From: an uncultured bacterium
GTDB taxonomy: Bacteria; Verrucomicrobiota; Lentisphaeria; Victivallales; UBA1829
Reading direction: 5' to 3'
Length of the DNA stretch: 64,000 nt
Assembly: GCA_949297765.1 (NCBI GenBank)
Contig: CASFTV010000011.1
Coordinates: 1 to 64,000 of the forward strand
Shown: positions 43,837 to 54,968 of the stretch, piece by piece
Numbering within the stretch: position 1 is the first letter of the stretch
How the letters are laid out: each line of letters begins with the position of its first letter
Translations under genes and position numbers: made by a program
Notes under the pieces: generated by a model
Seen by the model: the letters and a program-made list of their open reading frames with translations, nothing else
Told to the model about the DNA's origin: nothing
Databases searched by the model: none

Positions 43837-45198
43837 ATGAATGCAGTGATATCGTTTTGCGGACTTTGTCTTCTTCTGATTCTTGGAAAATTTCTGCGGA
43901 TGCATGTTCCGCTGTTTCAGAAACTCTATCTTCCGTCGTCGGTGATCGGAGGCGGAGTCGGATTGGTGCTGATCTCTCTGTTCGGCAGCCGCATTCCCGT
44001 GGCGTGGACCGCGGGATGGGGACAGGTTCCCTCGTTCCTGATCAACATCGTTTTCGCCGGTCTGTTTCTCGGCGTTGCGACCCCGGGAATCCGCAAGATC
44101 TGGAAAGTGACCGCACCTCAGCTCTGCTATGGACAGATTCTCGCCTGGGGACAGTATCTTGTCGGCATTCTGGTGGTGGTCCTGATTCTGAAGCCGCTGT
44201 TTCATGTGGAACCGGCGTTTGCGGCGCTGATTGAAATGGGATTCGAGGGCGGACACGGAACGGTCGCCGGACTGGTCAACACCTTCGAGGAGTTCGGATG
44301 GCCCGAAGGAAAGGATCTCGGATTCACCGTGGCCACGGTCGGCATGATTACCGGTGTGGTGCTCGGCATGTGGCTGGTGAATCTCGCGGTCAAATTCGGC
44401 TGGGTGAAAAATATCCGTCTGTTTGAAGACCAGACGCGGTTTGAACGTAAAGGCATCTATCCGGACGGCGAGCAGCCGCCCGCGGGAAAACAGACGGTCG
44501 CTTCAGATTCCATCGATTCTCTGGCTCTTCATATCGCCATCATCGGTCTTGCCGTAACGCTCGGCTGCCTGATCCGGGAACTTCTGATCGCGGTGAATTC
44601 CATTGCGCCGGAAGCGATCCGGGAACTGAAATTTCTGGCAAGTTTCCCGCTGTTTCCTCTCTGCATGATCGGCGGACTGATTCTCCAGAAACTCTTCACG
44701 TTCCTGAAAATGGATTATCTGATCGACCACGGTCTGATGCAGCGGCTGGCGGGAACGTCTCTGGATTTCCTTGTGGTTGCGGCGGTTGCGTCGATCCGTC
44801 TTGAATTTGTCGCGGCGAACTGGATGCCGCTGACGATTCTCTGTCTTGCCGGAGTCGCATGGAATGTCTCTCTGACCCTTTTCCTGGCGCCGCGCGTTTT
44901 CACCAACGCATGGTTTGAGCGGGCGATCGCGGAATTCGGACAGTCCTCCGGGGTGACGGCGACCGGACTTCTGCTGCTTCGGACCGTGGATCCGGAAAAC
45001 AAGACCGTTGCTCCCGAAGCATTCGGGTACAAACAGCTCCTTCATGAGCCGATCATGGGCGGCGGCATCTGGACCTCCCTTGCCGTCTCCCTGCTTCTGA
45101 CCCAGGGGTTTTCCGCTGTATTCATCACGACGGTCATCATGCTGGTTCTCTGGCTTCTTTTCTGGTTTTTTGTCCTGCGGAAAGGCTCCTACATCTGA
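43837..45198 (+). CDS. gltS: Sodium/glutamate symporter (GltS family)
   Basis: 453 residues with 10-12 membrane segments in two inverted halves. The conserved loops GFEGGHGTVAGL and FGQSSGVTATGLLLLRTVDPE are the GltS re-entrant signature regions. Takes up glutamate (or a related acid) with sodium. Divergent from the DUF4886 gene. Confidence 0.88.
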   Translation: MNAVISFCGLCLLLILGKFLRMHVPLFQKLYLPSSVIGGGVGLVLISLFGSRIPVAWTAGWGQVPSFLINIVFAGLFLGVATPGIRKIWKVTAPQLCYGQILAWGQYLVGILVVVLILKPLFHVEPAFAALIEMGFEGGHGTVAGLVNTFEEFGWPEGKDLGFTVATVGMITGVVLGMWLVNLAVKFGWVKNIRLFEDQTRFERKGIYPDGEQPPAGKQTVASDSIDSLALHIAIIGLAVTLGCLIRELLIAVNSIAPEAIRELKFLASFPLFPLCMIGGLILQKLFTFLKMDYLIDHGLMQRLAGTSLDFLVVAAVASIRLEFVAANWMPLTILCLAGVAWNVSLTLFLAPRVFTNAWFERAIAEFGQSSGVTATGLLLLRTVDPENKTVAPEAFGYKQLLHEPIMGGGIWTSLAVSLLLTQGFSAVFITTVIMLVLWLLFWFFVLRKGSYI

Positions 45199-45255
45199 TT
45201 CTCTCCGGAGCGGCGGATCCACTCTTTCTTTCCGGAGGGAGAAAACAGGAGCTCT

Positions 45256-46507
45256 TCAGTTGGAAAACATCTGATACGCTTTCCATTCCCAGACGGCGTT
45301 TTCCGCGAAGAAAAGACCGGCATAATGCAGCTTGTTCCATGGAATGGCCGATGCGGCCTGCCGCAGTTCCTTCAAGGCCGGTTCAATCAGATCCTCTTCC
45401 CGGGAAATCAGGATCAGCCACATCGCCGCGCAGGAATCCAGAATGGTCCTTTTTTCCTCGCCGACCGCCGGAGAAATTTTCCTGTGCCAGAGAGAAGCCA
45501 TTTCGCCGCATGCAAGAGTCGCGGCCTCTGTACATGAGGTGTGCGCGCGCCATGCGCTGAGCATCTTTCGCCAGTCCGGGTCAAAGGTCCGTCCGGGAGT
45601 ATAGTCCCGCCATTGAGTCAGCAGGGCCACGGAGTTTTCCGCGATTTGCCGCAGACTCTTTTTACAGATCTTTTGGACCTCGGGCTCGGGACGATCCAGA
45701 AAACTCCGGAGGGCATAGCAGGAATGAGTCAGATACCACGCGGTTTTCCCGGAATCGCGGGGATAGCCTTTTTCGAGAAGCTCCTTCAGACGCATCCCTT
45801 CAAAAAAGATCTCGTTCCAGTATTGCATAAAAAGACCCTTTTTTTCCGGCGCGACTTTTTCATACAGATGAAGTGCCGTCAGCAGATGAACCGCGCCAAG
45901 CCACGCTTCATAGATGCCGTTCCGGTGGATATAGGATCCTCTCTCAAAACCCGGCCGATCGCCTGGAACCGTCCAATGATTCGCATACAGCCCGTCCAGC
46001 TGACGAAGCAGGTGGCTGCGGCAGATCTCCTTTTCCCTGTTCGAAGGAATCCCGCTTTCCATATAGGCGTCAAGAGCCAGAAGCCAGGGAGAAATCTGAT
46101 CGTCCGACGACCCGGGATAGTGACTGTACCCATCGGCGCCGACTCCGCGGCAGATGCAGCCGTCCACCGTGCAGACATCCTGAATGAGCAGAAGTCCCTG
46201 TACAAGCCGGCGAATTTCCGTTTTCCGTCTCCTTCTCTTTCCCTTCATGAAGAGCAAGGTGGTAGGCCGTAAGGAGCCCCAGCAGATAGTCTCCATTGAA
46301 AAATCCCGCGTTTTCGATCGGCGACCACCAACCCAGCGCATTGGGCTGATTTCTCTCGCATTCTTCTGCCGTCGGAAGAGAAAGATTCCCCTCCAGATCG
46401 GCATAATCCAGCATGATATTGTTCTTGTCAATGAAACGCTTCCAAATCGTGGAATGGATCTCATGCTGCGCCAGTTCCAAAGCCGCATCCGTTTGTTCGT
46501 TTCTCAT
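45256..46507 (-). pseudogene. Frameshifted gene, large alpha-helical protein
   Basis: The N-terminal part (from ATG 46507, MRNEQTDAALELAQ, AAGGA upstream) runs to about residue 95 in one frame. The C-terminal 320 residues continue in the +1 frame from about 46224 to the stop at 45256. The total of 1252 bases is 3n+1. The junction is near TTTT at 46221-46224 (GGAAAACGG on the coding strand), so a one-base insertion there explains the break. The restored product would have about 416 residues, rich in helix pairs with aromatic and acidic residues (for example HWTVPGDRPGFERGSYIHRNGIYEAW), suggesting an (alpha/alpha) barrel sugar enzyme; no family is certain. Sequencing error is the alternative. 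Confidence 0.7.
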
Positions 46508-46547
46508 CGTCGTCTCATCCTTTCCGCTACTTGGATCAATCATTTTT

Positions 46548-46559
46548 TCTCCATGGAGA
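46548..46559. promoter_or_regulatory. Perfect palindrome upstream of the frameshifted gene
   Basis: TCTCCATGGAGA, 40 bases upstream of the start codon. Possible operator. Confidence 0.25.
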
Positions 46560-46642
46560 GTTTCTCAACAGCCCGGCAACGTTTTCTGCGGAAAAAAATG
46601 CGAGAGCTTTTCTGATACAGGCGCACCTCCTCTCGAATGTCT

Positions 46643-46672
46643 AAAAAAAAGACTCCCCGAAAACGGGGAGTC
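46643..46672 (-). terminator. Intrinsic terminator after the solute symporter gene
   Basis: On the minus strand, perfect 9-base stem GACTCCCCG/CGGGGAGTC with a TTTT loop and eight T residues. Confidence 0.92.
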
Positions 46673-46701
46673 CAAAAACACACCGGGTCAAACCCCCGGA
46701 A

Positions 46702-48960
46702 TTATTTATCCTCGAAAATCTGACCGTTGTCATCCGGATCTTCGACGCGCTTTTCAAGGTCGATGAAAAGCTGTCTTGCGTCATGAATACCGCCGATTAG
46801 GAACCAGATCGTTGATACAACACCGACGATTCCGGGAATCAGCAGAGTGGTAATGAAGAATTTCACTGTCCACCAGGAGTTCGGCCACGGGCGGATTGCG
46901 TTCCAGATCACAATACAGACGAAGATCAGGATCACGCTGTAAACCACAGAGTATCCGAAAACGGAATACGCAATGATTTTGTCTCCGCGGGTGTATTCCG
47001 GCGTAATGCCGATAATTTTGCTGAACACGTTCCGCACAGTCCATTTTTCCGGCTGGGGAGTCGGTCCGTCGGCATAGATTCCGCGATGGAGCAGCTTGTC
47101 AAGGTCGTACGGCTTGTAGGTCAGATAGGACCCGATCACATAGCCGCCGACGGAAAGAATCATGGAGATAAAATAAATCTCAAACGAATTGATGGGGAAC
47201 TTCACCGGATCCATCGTCCATTGAATCCAGGGGTTGAACGGGGAGGAGATGGTGACCAGGAATGTATCCAGACCTTCCACCCAGCCCATTTTTTCAAGGA
47301 AGGGATAGACCGACAACGCCCAGTTGCGCTGCATAATCAGTCCGAACAGCGAGGTTCCGGAACCGAAAATAATCGCACACCATGCGCCGGTCAGATTTCC
47401 GAAACGGCTGTACAGACCGAAGACCATGATCGGTCCTGCACCGCCGAGCCACAGCGAACACATGATCGTCGTAAACATGTTGATATAGTCGAGCTGGGCG
47501 AAGAACAGCGAGACGATCAGGAAGAAGACCGCCACTCCAACGGTCGTCAAACGCAGATACAGCAGATGTTTCTCGGGCGGCAGACGGCCTTTGAACATCG
47601 GCAGCACCACGTCCTGCATCAGAGTGGACGACGCATTGAAAATACGGCTGTCGTCCGTGGAGATCAGCAGCATGACCATCAGCAGACAGAAAATTCCGAG
47701 CATTCCCACCGGGAAGATTTTGCTGACCACCGCCGGCATCATCATCTGCTGGAAAAGCGAACGGTACTTCTGGAACTGATAACGTCCTTCCGGCGAATCT
47801 CCGAGCGCCTGACGGACCGTGTTGAAGTACGGCGTATCAAGATTTTTCTGCTGGGAAAGCGGACCGGAAATATCCTTTTCCGTCAGGCGTTCCGGAATTT
47901 TCCGCACCTCGTCCATAATCTGTGACCGGAGCAGCGGATCGGGAACCGCCTCCTCCAGAACCTTCGCGGAAAGATGCTGACGGACATCGGTGCTCGAAAT
48001 CGGGAACCGGTTCTTTCCGACAAAGTGAGGACTCGTCATAAAGACGATCACCACAATGGCCAGCAGCAGAATCATCATCCAGGCGAAACCGTTTCTCCAT
48101 GCGCCGAGCACGCCCGCCATTTTCTGTTCATGCGGGGTTTTGGCGGCGCCGCTGGTGTCGTTCCCGATCCATCCGGCGCGGTTCAGAACCGATCCGAGAA
48201 GGGAGACCACCAGTGCAAACATATTGAAGTCGCGCAGCTGGGAAACATCATACGGATTCATGAAGCTCTGACCGGGAACGCGGTTCCACATCACGGGCGC
48301 AATGTCACCGGTCCACGAGAAGTTCAGAATGATATAACCGACAATCACCACGAAGATCGGGTAACTGAGCAGTCCCTGGAAACAGTCCGTGATCAGCAGC
48401 GAAATACGGCCGCCCGGCCAGATGAAGATCATCGCCAGCGTCAGACAGAGAAACACCACAATGCCGTAACACGGAAGACTGATTCCGAAAAGCATGATCT
48501 TATGCGGAAGTCCAAGATAATAAATAAAGAAATTGGTCGCGATCGCGGGCCCGATCGCATTGGTGACCATTTCAGCGATAGTTCGAAGTGTTGCGCAGAA
48601 CACACGGAAGAATTTGCTTCCGTACCGCATTTCGAGGAACTGCCCCATGGAAAGACACCGGGTCTCCCGCCAGCGGTACATACAGTATCCGGTCAGGGCC
48701 ATGAACACGCCCACCGGCGCGGTGATCGCTCCCCAGAATCCGACGGCGAATCCGGTCTGATAATTCTGTTCGCACCCTGCGACCAGTGTGATGACGGACA
48801 GTCCCGCGGTCATGTCTCCGACCGAGAGAACATAACGCCCAGCAATTCGTCCCGCCGCCAGAAAGTCGACAACGCCTCTCGCGTATTTTCGCGAATAGAT
48901 GGACACCCAGATCAGCAGACTCATCGGGATGACCACGATACACCAATCAATCCAACTCAT
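46702..48960 (-). CDS. Sodium:solute symporter family transporter
   Basis: 752 residues, against about 500-550 for typical SSS members. The N-terminal part shows the family pattern (VDFLAAGRIAGRYVLSVGDMTAGLSVITLVAGCEQNY, then FLEMRYGSKFFR). A hydrophilic stretch of about 90 residues (around 320-410, starting near STDVRQHLSAK) is inserted between membrane segments. The substrate is unknown; sugar or organic-acid uptake is likely in this context. It has its own promoter and terminator. Confidence 0.82.
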   Translation of the reverse strand: MSWIDWCIVVIPMSLLIWVSIYSRKYARGVVDFLAAGRIAGRYVLSVGDMTAGLSVITLVAGCEQNYQTGFAVGFWGAITAPVGVFMALTGYCMYRWRETRCLSMGQFLEMRYGSKFFRVFCATLRTIAEMVTNAIGPAIATNFFIYYLGLPHKIMLFGISLPCYGIVVFLCLTLAMIFIWPGGRISLLITDCFQGLLSYPIFVVIVGYIILNFSWTGDIAPVMWNRVPGQSFMNPYDVSQLRDFNMFALVVSLLGSVLNRAGWIGNDTSGAAKTPHEQKMAGVLGAWRNGFAWMMILLLAIVVIVFMTSPHFVGKNRFPISSTDVRQHLSAKVLEEAVPDPLLRSQIMDEVRKIPERLTEKDISGPLSQQKNLDTPYFNTVRQALGDSPEGRYQFQKYRSLFQQMMMPAVVSKIFPVGMLGIFCLLMVMLLISTDDSRIFNASSTLMQDVVLPMFKGRLPPEKHLLYLRLTTVGVAVFFLIVSLFFAQLDYINMFTTIMCSLWLGGAGPIMVFGLYSRFGNLTGAWCAIIFGSGTSLFGLIMQRNWALSVYPFLEKMGWVEGLDTFLVTISSPFNPWIQWTMDPVKFPINSFEIYFISMILSVGGYVIGSYLTYKPYDLDKLLHRGIYADGPTPQPEKWTVRNVFSKIIGITPEYTRGDKIIAYSVFGYSVVYSVILIFVCIVIWNAIRPWPNSWWTVKFFITTLLIPGIVGVVSTIWFLIGGIHDARQLFIDLEKRVEDPDDNGQIFEDK

Positions 48961-49105
48961 TTCTCTCCCTTGAACGTTTTAATTCCCTGATTTGCGGCTT
49001 TGGAATCTGCGGATGTTTCAAAACAGCGGAAAGAGCGGAAGTCCCCCTCATCTGCGAACTGCCGCTCCTGTTTTAAAAAACATTTCACATTCCCACCGGA
49101 GGATT

Positions 49106-49133
49106 ACTATAGCATAAAAACAGGAGAAATCAA
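49106..49133 (-). promoter_or_regulatory. Promoter of the solute symporter gene
   Basis: Minus-strand TTGATT (49128-49133) and TATAGT (49106-49111), 16-base spacer. The untranslated leader is about 140 bases. Confidence 0.6.
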
Positions 49134-49158
49134 TCCGGAAAACAGGAAAAATCAATCC
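49118..49158 (-). promoter_or_regulatory. Tandem direct repeats over the symporter promoter
   Basis: AAACAGGAGAAATCAATCC (49118-49136) and AAACAGGAAAAATCAATCC (49140-49158): 18 of 19 bases match and the starts are 22 bases apart, two helical turns. The first copy covers the -35 box and the second lies upstream of it. Two same-face activator sites, as for AraC-type proteins or response regulators, fit well. Confidence 0.6.
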
Positions 49159-49214
49159 ATTTTAACTATTTTTTTCATACGGGGAGCCGACCGGGCGGAG
49201 AATTCGCAACTCCT

Positions 49215-51620
49215 TCAGCTCCCGAGATATCCGTGGATGGCGGAAACCAGATTTTCCACGCTGACCGGTTTCCGGAGACAGAGATCCACTCCCGATTCCA
49301 GAATGGCCGCATGTTCCGCTTCGGTCAGTCCCGGACTGATTCCCAGAATAATCAGATTCGGATTGGTGCTGCCCGTCCGGATCGCCGCAAGAAGCGGTGT
49401 GCAGAACGCCTTCTGGAAATTCAGTTCCAGAAGCAGAAAATCAAAATGTTTTTCCTTCAGAAGACGGATGCACTCTTCCGGCGTTGTCGCATGCGTCAGA
49501 GAACACGGCTCGTTTTCCAGCATCATGGAGAACATCGTGAAACTCGTTGCCGACGGATCCGCCACCAGGATCTCATAGTGCCGGCCGTCGCGCAGATAAA
49601 CCTTCCGGTTCCGGTCCGGGGAGAAGATGCAGCTCGAAGTCCTGGCATGCCGCATGTTCTCCTCCTGCTCCCGGTTGCCCGAAAGCACCATGTCCAGCGG
49701 ATCCTGTTTCGGGAAGACCAGCTCTATTTCCGTGTTGGATTCCCGGGTCCTCTGAACGGAGAAACGGGCTCCCAGAAGCGCCGCCTGAAACTTGATGATC
49801 GTCAGATTCAGAATCGGCGCCGCGTAACCGGGAATGAACCGGCGGGAGGCGGCAAACTGAATGCGTTCGTTGAAAAGATCCGCCAGCGAGAGTGTTTCTG
49901 TCGAGCGAGTGTCGTAGAAACGGAATGCGATTTCATGTTCCCGGTCGGTGCAGCTCCAGCGGACCCGTGTCTTCGGCGGCGCAACGGAAAGCAATGTGGT
50001 CGCCGCAAGTTTCAGAAGGCGCAGCATGATGGCCCGGTCCGAAATCATCCGGTCCGGAAGATCCGAACAGCAGGTCTCGAATGCCACATGCCGTTCCGAA
50101 GAAAGCGGAACACAGGCGTCCGAAATCTCCCGGACAAGCTCCGAAACATCAAACTCCGAATAAGAGGGGTCGCCTTCCGAAAGATCCAGTTCCGCAAGAT
50201 TCCCCAGCGCCGCCAGAAGACGGTTCGCCGCAAGGGCCTCTTCATGAATCTTCCGCAGCGGTGTCAGATTCTCCTCCTGGTTTTTCTGCTTGTGCAGAAG
50301 CAGACCGGAAAAGCTGATCATCAGACTGACGGGGTCCTGAAGCTCCGTCACCATGTCGTTCAGCAGAACCGATTTCATCCGGTTGGAATTTTCCGCATCG
50401 CTCCGCGCGAGAAGCTCCCGCTCATGGCTCTTTTTCAGACGGACCGTCAGACTGGCGAACTTGTCCCGCAGATGATTGAGATTGCTGGAGATCTCCTGCA
50501 CCTCTTCCGAATCCCCCGCCCGCAGATTTTCCGGAAGCTCCTCGCCCCGGGAAAGACGGCTTGTGAAATCCAGAATCCGGTTCACCGCGTTGGAAAGATT
50601 CCGCGTGCTGACCAGCAGCGGAATAAAGAAGATGAACAATCCGAGAAGAGCAAAAAGAATCAGAAACAGCACGCTTCCCGATTCCATTCTCAGAAATGCC
50701 GCGGGCGCCGGTGCGGCAGCCCGTGCCTGAACAAGCCGCAGTTCCCGCGCCGGCGTGGAAACGACCTGAAGTGTGATCGCCGCGAGACTCCAGTTCCGTC
50801 CGGTGGCTCTGTCGGTGATGGTTTCCTGTTCAAAACGGCGCGATCCCATGATCGACACCAGACGCGAGGCCAGAAGCTGCATCCGCAGTTTCAGATCCCC
50901 GGAATGGAGGAACTGCACCTCCCCCTGCCGGTAGCTCCCGGTGACCTCATGCCCGTGCATCAGAAAAAAAAGAGTCGGAATTTCCGGCTCGGCAAAACGG
51001 CTCAGAAGACGTCTGGTATTGATCTGATACGCGGTCAGACGGTCATTGCTTCCGGAGAAGCGCCGGGATACCGCCCACAGAAATCCGGTCCCTTTCGGCG
51101 GAACGACAATCATGGAGTCGCTGATGAAATTTTTCCGGAACGCGAGCAGTTCCTCCGGGACGGCCGAATCGGTTGTATGACGGTTGGTTTCCGAGCAGCT
51201 TTCGCTCTGGATATTTTCTTTTCCGTCGCCGTCTGTAACGGTCACAATGCGTTCCACTTCCAGCGGCAGATAGCGTCCGTCGGAAAACCCTTTCTCCCGG
51301 GCGAGGTGTTCCAGCGCATTCATCAGCGGCGATTCCGTGTCTCTGCCGTTCCGGGGGGCCTTTTCCGCCATGAGGAGATTCAGAAGCTCCAGATCCTGAA
51401 ACATGGAGTGGAACATTTCCTCCAGCCGGACGGCGTGTGCGAGGGAATCCGCCCGCAGCTGTTCCTGCGATGCCTCTTCAAGAAGCCGGGCGGTGTAGGC
51501 GGCGTTTTCCTCCAGATAAGAATCCGTCTTCAGGTAAAACAGAAGAAACACAAGCAGACTGGCAAAAATGGCGGCGCTGCCGACGGAAACAATGATTTTG
51601 GTCTGAATTTTCATTCGCAC
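49215..51620 (-). CDS. Degenerate hybrid histidine kinase (pseudo-kinase with receiver-like domain)
   Basis: 801 residues. A membrane helix (about 7-27), a large extracytoplasmic sensor (30-310), a second helix (about 318-342), a HAMP-like linker, a HisKA-like pair of helices, an ATPase-like region and a C-terminal receiver. In the H-box, where active kinases have S-H-E-L-R-T-P, it reads MVTELQDP, so the phospho-acceptor His is Thr425. The ATPase region lacks recognisable N, G1 and G2 boxes. The receiver has LLLELNF, so the phospho-acceptor Asp is Glu732; the acidic pair is reduced to one (LVADPSA), while the Lys of LRKPV is kept. The gene starts 5 bases after the pseudokinase gene. It probably signals by binding and not by phosphotransfer, which is inference. 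Confidence 0.8.
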   Translation of the reverse strand: MRMKIQTKIIVSVGSAAIFASLLVFLLFYLKTDSYLEENAAYTARLLEEASQEQLRADSLAHAVRLEEMFHSMFQDLELLNLLMAEKAPRNGRDTESPLMNALEHLAREKGFSDGRYLPLEVERIVTVTDGDGKENIQSESCSETNRHTTDSAVPEELLAFRKNFISDSMIVVPPKGTGFLWAVSRRFSGSNDRLTAYQINTRRLLSRFAEPEIPTLFFLMHGHEVTGSYRQGEVQFLHSGDLKLRMQLLASRLVSIMGSRRFEQETITDRATGRNWSLAAITLQVVSTPARELRLVQARAAAPAPAAFLRMESGSVLFLILFALLGLFIFFIPLLVSTRNLSNAVNRILDFTSRLSRGEELPENLRAGDSEEVQEISSNLNHLRDKFASLTVRLKKSHERELLARSDAENSNRMKSVLLNDMVTELQDPVSLMISFSGLLLHKQKNQEENLTPLRKIHEEALAANRLLAALGNLAELDLSEGDPSYSEFDVSELVREISDACVPLSSERHVAFETCCSDLPDRMISDRAIMLRLLKLAATTLLSVAPPKTRVRWSCTDREHEIAFRFYDTRSTETLSLADLFNERIQFAASRRFIPGYAAPILNLTIIKFQAALLGARFSVQRTRESNTEIELVFPKQDPLDMVLSGNREQEENMRHARTSSCIFSPDRNRKVYLRDGRHYEILVADPSATSFTMFSMMLENEPCSLTHATTPEECIRLLKEKHFDFLLLELNFQKAFCTPLLAAIRTGSTNPNLIILGISPGLTEAEHAAILESGVDLCLRKPVSVENLVSAIHGYLGS

Positions 51621-51625
51621 TTCTT

Positions 51626-52609
51626 TCAGGTTCTCTTTTTCGCGATTTTTTTCAGCTTCTCCCGGACATACTGGATGTGCTGGAGCCGGGCGTTGACCGT
51701 TGCGATGATGGTCGGATAATCGGGCCGTTCCAGGGGATTGGGACTGACCATTTTGCAGATCAGTTCCGAAATGGAGTCGTTGACCATTTTGGCGATCCAG
51801 TGGTTGTGGACGATTCTCCGGCCGTCTTCCTCATCGCTGGGGACTTCGGTTCCGGTCAGGAGATAGTAGAACAGTGCGCCGAGGGAGTAGATGTCGGTCC
51901 GTTCATTGACGGTGCCGTTTTTCGCCGTTTCCGGCGCAGAGAACAGATTGAGGTTCATGTATCCCGCGTTCTGCAGCAGTTCATAGAGTCCGAAATGGAT
52001 CAGGCTGGTTTTTCCCGTCTGTTCGTCGAGAATGACGTTTGTGGTGTTGACTTCTCCGTGGAAGAGTCCGCGCTCCGTTGCGGCCTGGAGTCCCGCGGCG
52101 ATGCCGGCGATCCATCCGCAGGCCGTTTCCAGCGGAGCGACGCCGTCCGATGCAAGCAGAGATTCCTGAAGCGATTTCCCCGTGAGATCCGGTGTCACCA
52201 GAAACGGCAGGGTGCCGATCACGCCGATGTTGAACACCGTCACAATGGACGGATTGTTCAGAATGGCGAGGGTCCGGCCGATGTCGACAAACTGACGGCA
52301 TCGTTCCTCCGAAGCGGCGTAGAACGGATTGAGAAAATGAAGAGTCACCATGCGGTCCAGAGAAAGATCCACCGCCCGGACCTGGGTGACAACTCCGGTT
52401 GATTCCTCGATCGGCGTGTCGATCCGGAAGGTGTCCACCCAGAGCGGACGGACCACCTGCGAGGAGCAGACCGGACAGACAAAGGACGAAAATACGGGGA
52501 TCTCAGTAACATCAAAATGCTGTCCGCATGACGGACAGCTCATTTTCAGAACTCCGCCTGCGGATTCCGAGGCAATCAGCTCCGTCAGCGTTTTGTTTTC
52601 TTCATCCAT
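51626..52609 (-). CDS. Zinc-ribbon pseudokinase (Ser/Thr kinase fold without catalytic residues)
   Basis: 327 residues. The N-terminus has a zinc ribbon (CPSC at 25-28, CPVC at 45-48). Residues 60-310 follow the protein-kinase fold: APET, the DxxSLG segment (TDIYSLGALFYYLLTG) and the C-lobe RPDY motif are intact. Catalytic positions are changed: the ATP-anchoring Lys is His91 (VTLHFL), HRD reads HGE (Glu186), the catalytic-loop Lys is Asn and DFG reads HFG (His205). The glycine-rich loop is also lost. It should not phosphorylate, but the fold is well kept, as in scaffold or regulatory pseudokinases. Second gene of the operon. Confidence 0.82.
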   Translation of the reverse strand: MDEENKTLTELIASESAGGVLKMSCPSCGQHFDVTEIPVFSSFVCPVCSSQVVRPLWVDTFRIDTPIEESTGVVTQVRAVDLSLDRMVTLHFLNPFYAASEERCRQFVDIGRTLAILNNPSIVTVFNIGVIGTLPFLVTPDLTGKSLQESLLASDGVAPLETACGWIAGIAAGLQAATERGLFHGEVNTTNVILDEQTGKTSLIHFGLYELLQNAGYMNLNLFSAPETAKNGTVNERTDIYSLGALFYYLLTGTEVPSDEEDGRRIVHNHWIAKMVNDSISELICKMVSPNPLERPDYPTIIATVNARLQHIQYVREKLKKIAKKRT

Positions 52610-52614
52610 GGCGG

Positions 52615-53406
52615 TCAGACGATCCAGAAAGTTTCCGTTGGTTGTGATGCATTTGCGACACGGTGTATAATATCACATCTTGCCAGATAGTCAAGCCGTT
52701 CTTCCGCCATGGCCTCGACAATTCCGCGATCGTTGCATTCGGAACTCAGGTGGGCGAAGAGCAGATAGCGGGTGTTGTCCGAGAGGATGTCGTCGAGCGC
52801 CTCCATGGTTTCCTTGTTGCTGAGGTGTCCGTAGCGGTTCATGATCCGCCGCTTGAGCCGCAGCGGACGGTCGGACTCCGCCAGCATTTTCAGATCATGA
52901 TTCGATTCCAGCAGAAGGGCGTCCGCTCCCGTCAGTCTGGATTTGACGGATTCCGCGAGGTGGCCGAGATCCGTCACAATGGAAATTTTCCGTTTCCCGT
53001 ACAGAAAATTGAACGCCACGGTTTCCGGCGCATCGTGCGGGACCGTGAACGGCTCCACCGTGATTCCGCAGAGAGAAAATGGTGTTCCCGCGGCAAACAC
53101 CATCCGCTGTGAACCGATCCGGTTCCGGCTCTGGAGCGAACGGCAGACAATCGCGGTCGCATAGCATGGAATCCGATAGGTGTCGGCAAAGATGCGGACC
53201 CCTTTTGTATGGTCCGTATGCTCATGCGTCACCAGAACGGCCCGGATCTCCTCCGGTTTCACGGAGACCGCGTTCAGCCGCGCGCAAAGCTCTTTCCCGG
53301 AGAAGCCCGCATCGACAAGAATCGCTCCTCCGGGAGTATGAATCACCGTCGCATTGCCCGAGCTGCCGCTTCCCAGATTGGTCAGGCCGAAAAGATGCTC
53401 CATCAT
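52615..53406 (-). CDS. WalJ/YycJ-type MBL-fold hydrolase
   Basis: 263 residues. Metallo-beta-lactamase fold with the motif VTHEHTDHTKG (HxHxDH), LGSGSSGNATVI at the start and the metal ligands of PHDAP and VTDLGHL. Homologue of Bacillus YycJ/WalJ, a putative exonuclease encoded beside the WalRK two-component system. Here it is the first gene of an operon with two dead kinases. The start ATG has GAAGGA 5 bases upstream. Divergent from rpoN. Confidence 0.85.
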   Translation of the reverse strand: MMEHLFGLTNLGSGSSGNATVIHTPGGAILVDAGFSGKELCARLNAVSVKPEEIRAVLVTHEHTDHTKGVRIFADTYRIPCYATAIVCRSLQSRNRIGSQRMVFAAGTPFSLCGITVEPFTVPHDAPETVAFNFLYGKRKISIVTDLGHLAESVKSRLTGADALLLESNHDLKMLAESDRPLRLKRRIMNRYGHLSNKETMEALDDILSDNTRYLLFAHLSSECNDRGIVEAMAEERLDYLARCDIIHRVANASQPTETFWIV

Positions 53407-53439: not shown

Positions 53440-53468
53440 ATTATACAGTTCCATGCGCTATATTTAAA
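53440..53468 (-). promoter_or_regulatory. Promoter of the MBL / pseudokinase operon
   Basis: Minus-strand TTTAAA (53463-53468) and a perfect TATAAT (53440-53445) with a 17-base spacer. Confidence 0.55.
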
Positions 53469-53516
53469 ATGAAAAATCAAAAAAATTAATCTTTTATTTG
53501 CAGATTGCGAACCACC

Positions 53517-54968
53517 ATGGCGGAACCGTCGCAGGGAATGATACAGGGAAATGAGCTCCGGCAGGAGCAGACCCTTACGCCGCAGCAGCTGCAGTCTCTG
53601 GATATCCTGTACGCTCCCGCCCTGGAGCTTCAGCAGAAGGTCAACCAGGAACTGGACACCAATCCGATTCTTGAACTTGCGGAGCCCGAATCCGATCCGG
53701 AGGCGGCTCTGCCCTCTTCCGCCGGCGCGGAGACGCCGGAACTCGGTTCCGAACGGGACGATATGGAAGAGGAACTTGCAAAAATTCTTCAGCTCACCGC
53801 CAGCGGCTATGCGTCGCCCTCCGAGGCGGCTCTGCCGTCCGGATTCGATCCGGAGGACGAGGAGGAACGGCAGGCATACCTGTTCAATTCCATTGCTGAC
53901 GAAGTTTCCATGCAGGAGCAGCTTCTGGAGCAGCTCCGCTGTTCGGATGCTTCGCCGGAACTTGCCGGGATCGCCGAGACTGTGATCGGCGGAATTGACG
54001 AGTCGGGCTATCTGAAAACCCATCCCGCGGATATTGCCACCGGAACGGGATGTTCCATTGAGGAGGCGGAGGAGGCCATTCGTCTGGTGCAGTCGTTTGA
54101 TCCGCCCGGAATCGGTGCGCGTGATCTGCGGGAGTGCCTGCGGATCCAGCTCCAGCGGCTCGGAAAAGATTCTCCGGAACTTCTGGACCTGGTGGAACAC
54201 CATCTGGACGAGATCGCCCGGAACAAACTTCCCCAGCTGGCGAAGAGCATGGGGATTCCGCTCGAGAGACTCTACTCGGATATTGCGGAAATCAAGAAAC
54301 TCAATCCCTGTCCCGGCAATCTGATTTCGGATGTGCGGCCGGTCTACCTGCTTCCGGAAGTGACCGTTGAACGGGACGGCGATGAGTTCAAGGTCGTTGC
54401 CGACGATTCCTATATTCCGCGTCTGCGCATTTCGAAATATTATCTGAAGCTGCTGGAGGATCCCGCCACGCCCGATGACGTCCGATCCTACATCCGCGCC
54501 AAGATCACCAGCGGAAACGGGTTGATGAAATCGCTGGAGCAGCGCCAGAAAACCATTAAACGGATTGCCGACGTGATTGTGGCCGCCCAGCATGATTTTT
54601 TCGCCAGAGGCGTCGAATACCTGAAGCCGATGACCATGCAGCAGGTGGCGGACAAGCTCGGTCTGCATGAGACAACCATCAGCCGCGCAATCGCGAACAA
54701 ATATCTTCAGACGCCGCGCGGAATCTTTGAGTTCAAATATTTTTTCACCGGAGGGTTTCAGTCGAAGCAGGGGGAGGAGATCTCCTCGCGCGGGGTCAAG
54801 GAGATCATCCGCGATCTGGTGGAGCGGGAGAATCCCGCCTCTCCGCTCTCGGACAGCAAACTGACGGCGCTGCTGAAGGAGCGCGGACTCGACGTCGCCC
54901 GCCGGACCGTCGCAAAATATCGGGAGGAGCTTGGCATCCAGTCCTCCCATCTGAGGAGAAGTTTCTGA
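53517..54968 (+). CDS. rpoN: RNA polymerase sigma-54 factor
   Basis: 483 residues. Region I is Gln/Leu-rich (QEQTLTPQQLQSLDILYAPALELQQKVNQELDTNPILEL). The core-binding domain follows, then a helix-turn-helix (MTMQQVADKLGLHETTISRAI) and the RpoN box ARRTVAKYREELGI near the C-terminus. It directs polymerase to -24/-12 promoters and needs an AAA+ activator, none of which is in this window. The ATG at 53517 was preferred to an in-frame TTG at 53505; neither has a strong ribosome site. The stop overlaps the next gene by one base (TGATG). Confidence 0.95.
   Translation: MAEPSQGMIQGNELRQEQTLTPQQLQSLDILYAPALELQQKVNQELDTNPILELAEPESDPEAALPSSAGAETPELGSERDDMEEELAKILQLTASGYASPSEAALPSGFDPEDEEERQAYLFNSIADEVSMQEQLLEQLRCSDASPELAGIAETVIGGIDESGYLKTHPADIATGTGCSIEEAEEAIRLVQSFDPPGIGARDLRECLRIQLQRLGKDSPELLDLVEHHLDEIARNKLPQLAKSMGIPLERLYSDIAEIKKLNPCPGNLISDVRPVYLLPEVTVERDGDEFKVVADDSYIPRLRISKYYLKLLEDPATPDDVRSYIRAKITSGNGLMKSLEQRQKTIKRIADVIVAAQHDFFARGVEYLKPMTMQQVADKLGLHETTISRAIANKYLQTPRGIFEFKYFFTGGFQSKQGEEISSRGVKEIIRDLVERENPASPLSDSKLTALLKERGLDVARRTVAKYREELGIQSSHLRRSF

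Follow-up and report, generated by a model that had tools for sequence, protein, structure and literature searches.

Pseudo-histidine kinases and bacterial pseudokinases are already known kinds of protein (PMC12632262, PMC12599244, PMC4211667), and only about 0.9% of HisKA domains are without the His (PMC12632262). DivL of Caulobacter keeps the DHp-CA fold with Tyr (or Ala) at the acceptor His site and has been conserved for a long time in one lineage; it has cytoplasmic PAS domains, no fused receiver, and no Ser/Thr kinase or MBL partner. Its example shows that a transmitter without the His is able to act as a sensor of a phospho-receiver (PMC4211667). RcsD and the RetS-type regulators are histidine kinase-like membrane proteins that work through other kinases, RcsD via an Hpt domain and RetS, which has receivers, by acting on GacS. 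The pseudokinases ActPs1-3, GLW, CP1, DLHK, and DYD have lost all three catalytic motifs, and several of these families have a C-terminal TM helix; the review that describes them mentions neither Lentisphaerota, nor a zinc ribbon, nor a lactamase (PMC12599244). In Firmicutes, the gene of the MBL hydrolase WalJ/YycJ adjoins that of WalK, an active histidine kinase with a separate regulator, WalR. YycJ/WalJ has been described as a 5′-3′ dsDNA exonuclease in mismatch repair (so cited in PMC4801191 and listed in PMC9836290), and S. aureus walJ is transcribed independently (PMC4801191).

The window (the whole stretch of 64,000 nt analyzed here, from an uncultured member of the Victivallales) contains three closely packed minus-strand genes beside rpoN, which encode an MBL-fold hydrolase (MBL), a Ser/Thr pseudokinase (PK), and a hybrid pseudo-histidine kinase (HK). 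This arrangement was confirmed, with a gap of 5 bp at each junction and a divergent match to rpoN (Table 1). We found no paper on the HK family or the operon in the open-access literature. The likelier HK start was the ATG at 51614 (799 aa), not the GTG at 51620, because the sibling genes begin at that site. The first part of the PK gene holds, at 52519-52539, a near-perfect 9-bp inverted repeat (GCTGTCCGT...GCGGACAGC) followed by a T-rich stretch; the hairpin may be fortuitous or may serve as an internal attenuator. The synteny check found no WalR-like regulator or response regulator encoded adjoining the operon.

Table 1 Features of the operon and its surroundings in the window
Feature	Position	Strand	Description	Support
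rpoN (sigma-54)	53505-54968	+	Divergent from MBL gene	Pfam
Candidate sigma-70-type promoter	53440-53468	-	TTTAAA-17-TATAAT, upstream of MBL gene	Consensus match only
MBL gene	52615-53406	-	MBL-fold hydrolase, WalJ/YycJ-like, 263 aa	Pfam Lactamase_B_2, E = 2e-21
PK gene	51626-52609	-	Zinc-ribbon Ser/Thr pseudokinase, 327 aa	Pfam Pkinase, E = 3e-13
HK gene	49215-51620	-	Hybrid pseudo-histidine kinase, 801 aa (GTG start)	
Receiver domain of HK	49236-49571	-	Approximately residues 684-795; D688, E732, S762, K784	Pfam Response_reg, E = 8e-8

The HK comprised, in order, TM1, a periplasmic domain, TM2, a HAMP-like region, DHp, CA, and the receiver. The changed residues T425 and E732 and the retained receiver Lys (K784) were as the initial annotation gave them. 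In addition, the ATP-binding domain has lost its N, G1, and G2 boxes, a change that the annotation had not mentioned, and HATPase_c had no Pfam match in HK. The AF2 model of HK was of moderate quality (pLDDT 69.7, pTM 0.39). Among the best structural matches of its DHp/CA part were RetS (Z 17.8) and DivL (Z 17.3; Foldseek, VIA), and the best VIA matches of its receiver were receivers (Z about 17); the VIA list was filled by DHp/CA and receiver domains and barely probed the rest of HK. The AF2 model of PK showed the kinase fold and the zinc ribbon (pLDDT 84.6). The predicted structures retained a kinase fold in PK and the DHp, CA, and receiver folds in HK, the latter as the initial annotation had stated. 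A binding module would be expected to keep its fold while losing catalytic function, and a shared fold is not by itself evidence of function.

A profile of the transmitter and receiver recovered the HK family in 56 of the 137 genomes of the order, with membership decided by score and by a match that began at the first HAMP-like positions, then by the tree. The tree split 55 HK members from 55 other histidine kinases without exception (support 0.89). The acceptor His was present in none of 55 family members vs. 52 of 54 comparison histidine kinases, which were drawn from the window genome, the order, the class, the phylum, and other phyla; the corresponding counts were 0/55 vs. 51/54 for the G1 box and 1/55 vs. 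50/54 for the G2 box. The residues found at the acceptor site across the family were P, L, C, I, T, A, S, W, K, R, D, and N. TM helices were detected in every member (TM scan), and the most divergent recognizable members matched Pfam HisKA, HAMP, and Response_reg but not HATPase_c. Searches of the class and phylum outside Victivallales returned only lower-scoring histidine kinases, and those inspected have the His. Judged by sequence, the HK family is monophyletic and restricted to Victivallales among the searched class and phylum. The pseudo-HK state is common to the whole family and was probably fixed in its ancestor, because the His and G1 are absent throughout. With the His lost and the fold and gene kept across a lineage, HK is a pseudo-histidine kinase that may act in a DivL-like mode. 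The family differs from DivL in its freely varying acceptor site, the absence of G1 in every member, two TMs, and a receiver, and from RcsD and RetS in that it has no Hpt and its operon encodes no cognate kinase.

Elsewhere in the window genome, six HisKA matches were found, of which four were orthodox by motif, a fifth (L216) by alignment, and the sixth marginal; all five clear HisKA kinases have the His. About ten of the 13 other Ser/Thr-kinase-like matches keep HxDxK. Two loci, L228 (G000:C21:6400-7600) and L230 (G000:C2:26500-27400), showed no standard catalytic loop by motif search and are possibly more pseudokinases. Another zinc-ribbon Ser/Thr kinase of the genome, L231 (G000:C2:138417-141071, 745 aa), is intact. 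Directly after it comes a free-standing receiver of 139 aa whose acidic residues are intact, which makes a second pairing of a Ser/Thr kinase with a two-component protein.

The receiver Asp was kept in 16 of the 52 HK members with this region (families f1, f2, f5, and f7), including the genus siblings and L192; Glu was found in the window and L072, and the remaining members, chiefly of family f4, had S, A, T, or another residue. The pseudo-receiver state thus holds for the window species and f4, not for the whole HK family. L192 (G003:C149, 5564 bp) was 88% identical to window positions 44119-49660 and had Asp732, with a receiver dN/dS of about 0.10 vs. the window. This contig is probably mis-binned and comes from an organism closely related to the window species; G003 also carries its own, more distant operon copy. 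Because L192 has Asp732, Glu732 reads as a recent change in one species. A locked phosphomimetic state of T425 and E732, one of two modes of action first suggested for the module, was rejected: site 425 varies among relatives, and position 732, also variable, is Asp in the nearest relative and the siblings.

In PK, the catalytic Lys, the HRD Asp, and the DFG Asp are all absent (H91, E186, and H205), which makes it a Ser/Thr pseudokinase. The motif residues H91 (Lys), H184-G185-E186 (HRD), and H205-F206-G207 (DFG) agreed with the initial annotation, to which we add the loss of the glycine loop (EESTGVV) and of the alpha-C Glu. The zinc ribbon (Cys25/28/45/48) was retained. Of the 53 relatives in the alignment, 47 have an intact PK, with the Lys, an HHD..K..N loop, and DFG, DFD, or DLG; G045, G078, and the window's genus, with all its four species, make up the six exceptions. 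The genus siblings, which retain the Lys, carry HGE and GFG and are also pseudokinases, and within the genus the loss of the Lys (H91) was confined to the window PK. Because the exceptions fall in different genera, PK apparently died in three separate losses, in the window's genus, G045 (L076), and G078 (L140). In G045, the HK gene sits elsewhere in the genome, apart from PK. Intact relatives (e.g., L070 and L064) have HHD for HRD at the catalytic loop and are non-RD kinases, and many f4 PKs have DFD in place of DFG. The view that two kinases were inactivated jointly did not survive this comparison: the HK loss is order-wide, whereas most genera have an intact PK and the PK loss in the window's genus was a separate event. 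Intact orthologues in close relatives had been named in advance as a sign of decay or sequencing error; these were found for PK and for Asp732 but not for the His.

The best matches of PK by sequence and structure were PknB/StkP-type Ser/Thr kinases, with which it shares the kinase fold and, in most PK relatives, a membrane anchor. It differs from them in the absence of PASTA repeats, the N-terminal zinc ribbon, HHD rather than HRD in relatives, and, in the window's genus, the missing catalytic residues. The NCBIfam model PknB_PASTA scored 89.6 bits on the window PK against a cut-off of 450; with no PASTA repeat detected by Pfam and the active site gone, the window PK is not a PknB/PASTA kinase. 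From the described pseudokinase families (PMC12599244), it is set apart by its N-terminal zinc ribbon and its position nested in a clade of intact kinases. According to the TM scan, PKs of families f1, f2, f3, and f7 mostly have one C-terminal TM helix, and in some genera a long extracytoplasmic region comes after it. A TM tail closes the sibling PKs, whereas the window PK, only 36% identical to them, has none; many f4 PKs are also without it. The long extracytoplasmic part is on HK (with a short PK) in some genera and on the PK tail (with a short HK) in others (L061-L100, L129-L168), and on both in g7. A sensor domain common to the tail of PK and the periplasmic region of HK was rejected (hhalign probability 0.3%).

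MBL is the sole intact enzyme of the window operon. Its metal site HxHxDH is intact (HEHTDH from His61), and the metal-site motifs were kept in all aligned relatives. Identity to the genus siblings was 66-68%, and NCBIfam gave superfamily matches only, all below the cut-off. As in WalJ/YycJ-WalRK, the hydrolase gene adjoins a histidine-kinase gene, but in the window the HK is dead, WalR is absent, and a Ser/Thr kinase gene is inserted. The parallel with WalRK drawn in the initial annotation is therefore weak, given also the reported exonuclease function of WalJ and the independent transcription of walJ in S. aureus (PMC4801191).

PK and HK were contiguous in 29 genomes across several families, and MBL was visible upstream in 28 of these; the comparison across Victivallales supported a conserved operon. 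MBL and HK occurred without PK in six genomes, and MBL and PK without HK in many. Neither PK nor HK is obligatory in the unit, because such loci exist without the third gene. Approximately one third of the HKs, mostly of family f4, lay away from the operon, some of them at contig ends. An rpoN gene adjoining the MBL gene was found in several other genera and is widespread in the order. Nine PK-like loci were inspected in the class outside Victivallales; none had an MBL neighbor, and a pairing of MBL and PK beyond Victivallales was rejected on this basis.

Pairwise dN/dS among the siblings G001-G003 was 0.10-0.16 for HK, 0.16-0.21 for PK, and 0.08-0.13 for MBL; these values rest on the siblings, and pairs with the window have a near-saturated, unreadable dS. 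Both pseudo-enzymes are under purifying selection among the genus siblings. Because the sibling PKs are themselves dead (HGE, GFG), this selection acts on pseudo-enzymes. All members had full-length open frames.

Starting from the observed anatomy, conservation, catalytic losses, synteny, and purifying selection, the reading we consider best, at about even chances, is a membrane receptor or scaffold module built on a fixed pseudo-HK and working by conformation, coupled to Ser/Thr signaling in most relatives and acting by binding only here. HK would be a two-TM receptor that passes a periplasmic signal via HAMP and a coiled coil to DHp, CA, and the receiver. These domains would keep their folds without the usual ATP binding or His autophosphorylation, and the output would be conformational, the docking of a partner; kinase-free signaling of this kind is known from DivL. 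In most of the order, the partner would be the adjacent, usually membrane-anchored, active Ser/Thr kinase, and the receptor would gate or scaffold Ser/Thr signaling in place of His-Asp transfer. In the window's genus, where the kinase is also catalytically dead, and in the window species, where the anchor is gone too, PK would have become an adaptor, and the unit would act by binding alone. A module that works by binding, the other mode of action suggested initially, or by allostery is sensible because both kinase-like proteins are catalytically dead, and the conserved operon also favors it. We infer a physical interaction of PK with HK, the direction of the signal, and a role or link of MBL, the possible effector; a complex is not proven by gene order.

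The main rival, which we regard as rather unlikely, is that the dead DHp/CA of HK reads a phosphorylated receiver, in cis or on a separate regulator, and that PK is a mere neighbor. DivL, which has neither the His nor kinase activity, reads DivK~P in this manner (PMC4211667) and ranks with the best matches of HK by fold and by profile, and the receiver Asp persists in the 16 members that include the genus siblings and L192. Yet HK persists in f4 and the window, where this Asp is gone (S, A, T, or E), so that a phospho-receiver in cis is not a general input, and the operon has no response regulator gene beside it. Progressive decay, with a pathway being lost and the window at a late stage (PK anchor and motifs gone, receiver Asp replaced by Glu), would account for the independent catalytic losses of PK in genus g1, G045, and G078, for the loss of the receiver Asp in f4, L072, and the window, and for the complete absence of PK or HK from some genera. 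It is nonetheless improbable given the full-length frames in all members, the kept folds, the persistence across the order, and a dN/dS well below 1 for both pseudo-enzymes among the siblings and near 0.10 for the receiver vs. L192. Far less probable still is sequencing or assembly error in the changed residues. The assembly is a metagenome-derived draft, but the changes lie at motif positions in intact frames, and HGE and xFG in PK and the loss of the His in HK recur in independently assembled siblings; error is thereby refuted save for E732 and H91, each found only in the window genome within its genus.

For MBL, simple co-transcription is a possibility of some weight, although we do not favor it: MBL would be a YycJ-type housekeeping DNA-repair nuclease, and PK and HK would act elsewhere. 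The mismatch-repair exonuclease activity reported for YycJ/WalJ (as cited in PMC4801191 and PMC9836290) and the pairing of MBL with PK alone or HK alone are consistent with it. The link of MBL to PK throughout the order, the PK-like genes examined outside it that have no MBL neighbor, and the HK that remains beside MBL even where PK is missing argue against it. Returning to the membrane receptor or scaffold, we tentatively suggest that the HK receptor was rewired into an order-wide sensory scaffold of the adjacent Ser/Thr kinase and, in some genera, into a kinase-free complex that may control the MBL nuclease.

Well-studied pseudo-histidine kinases such as DivL are few. Here, a monophyletic, order-wide family without the His or G1 is kept beside a Ser/Thr kinase whose catalytic residues survive in most species and have been lost in a few. 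This natural series, in which the kinase is alive, dead, or absent and the receiver Asp kept or lost, bears on the catalytic steps that are dispensable to a two-component-like receptor still under selection, and on whether histidine-kinase receptors can couple to Ser/Thr kinases.
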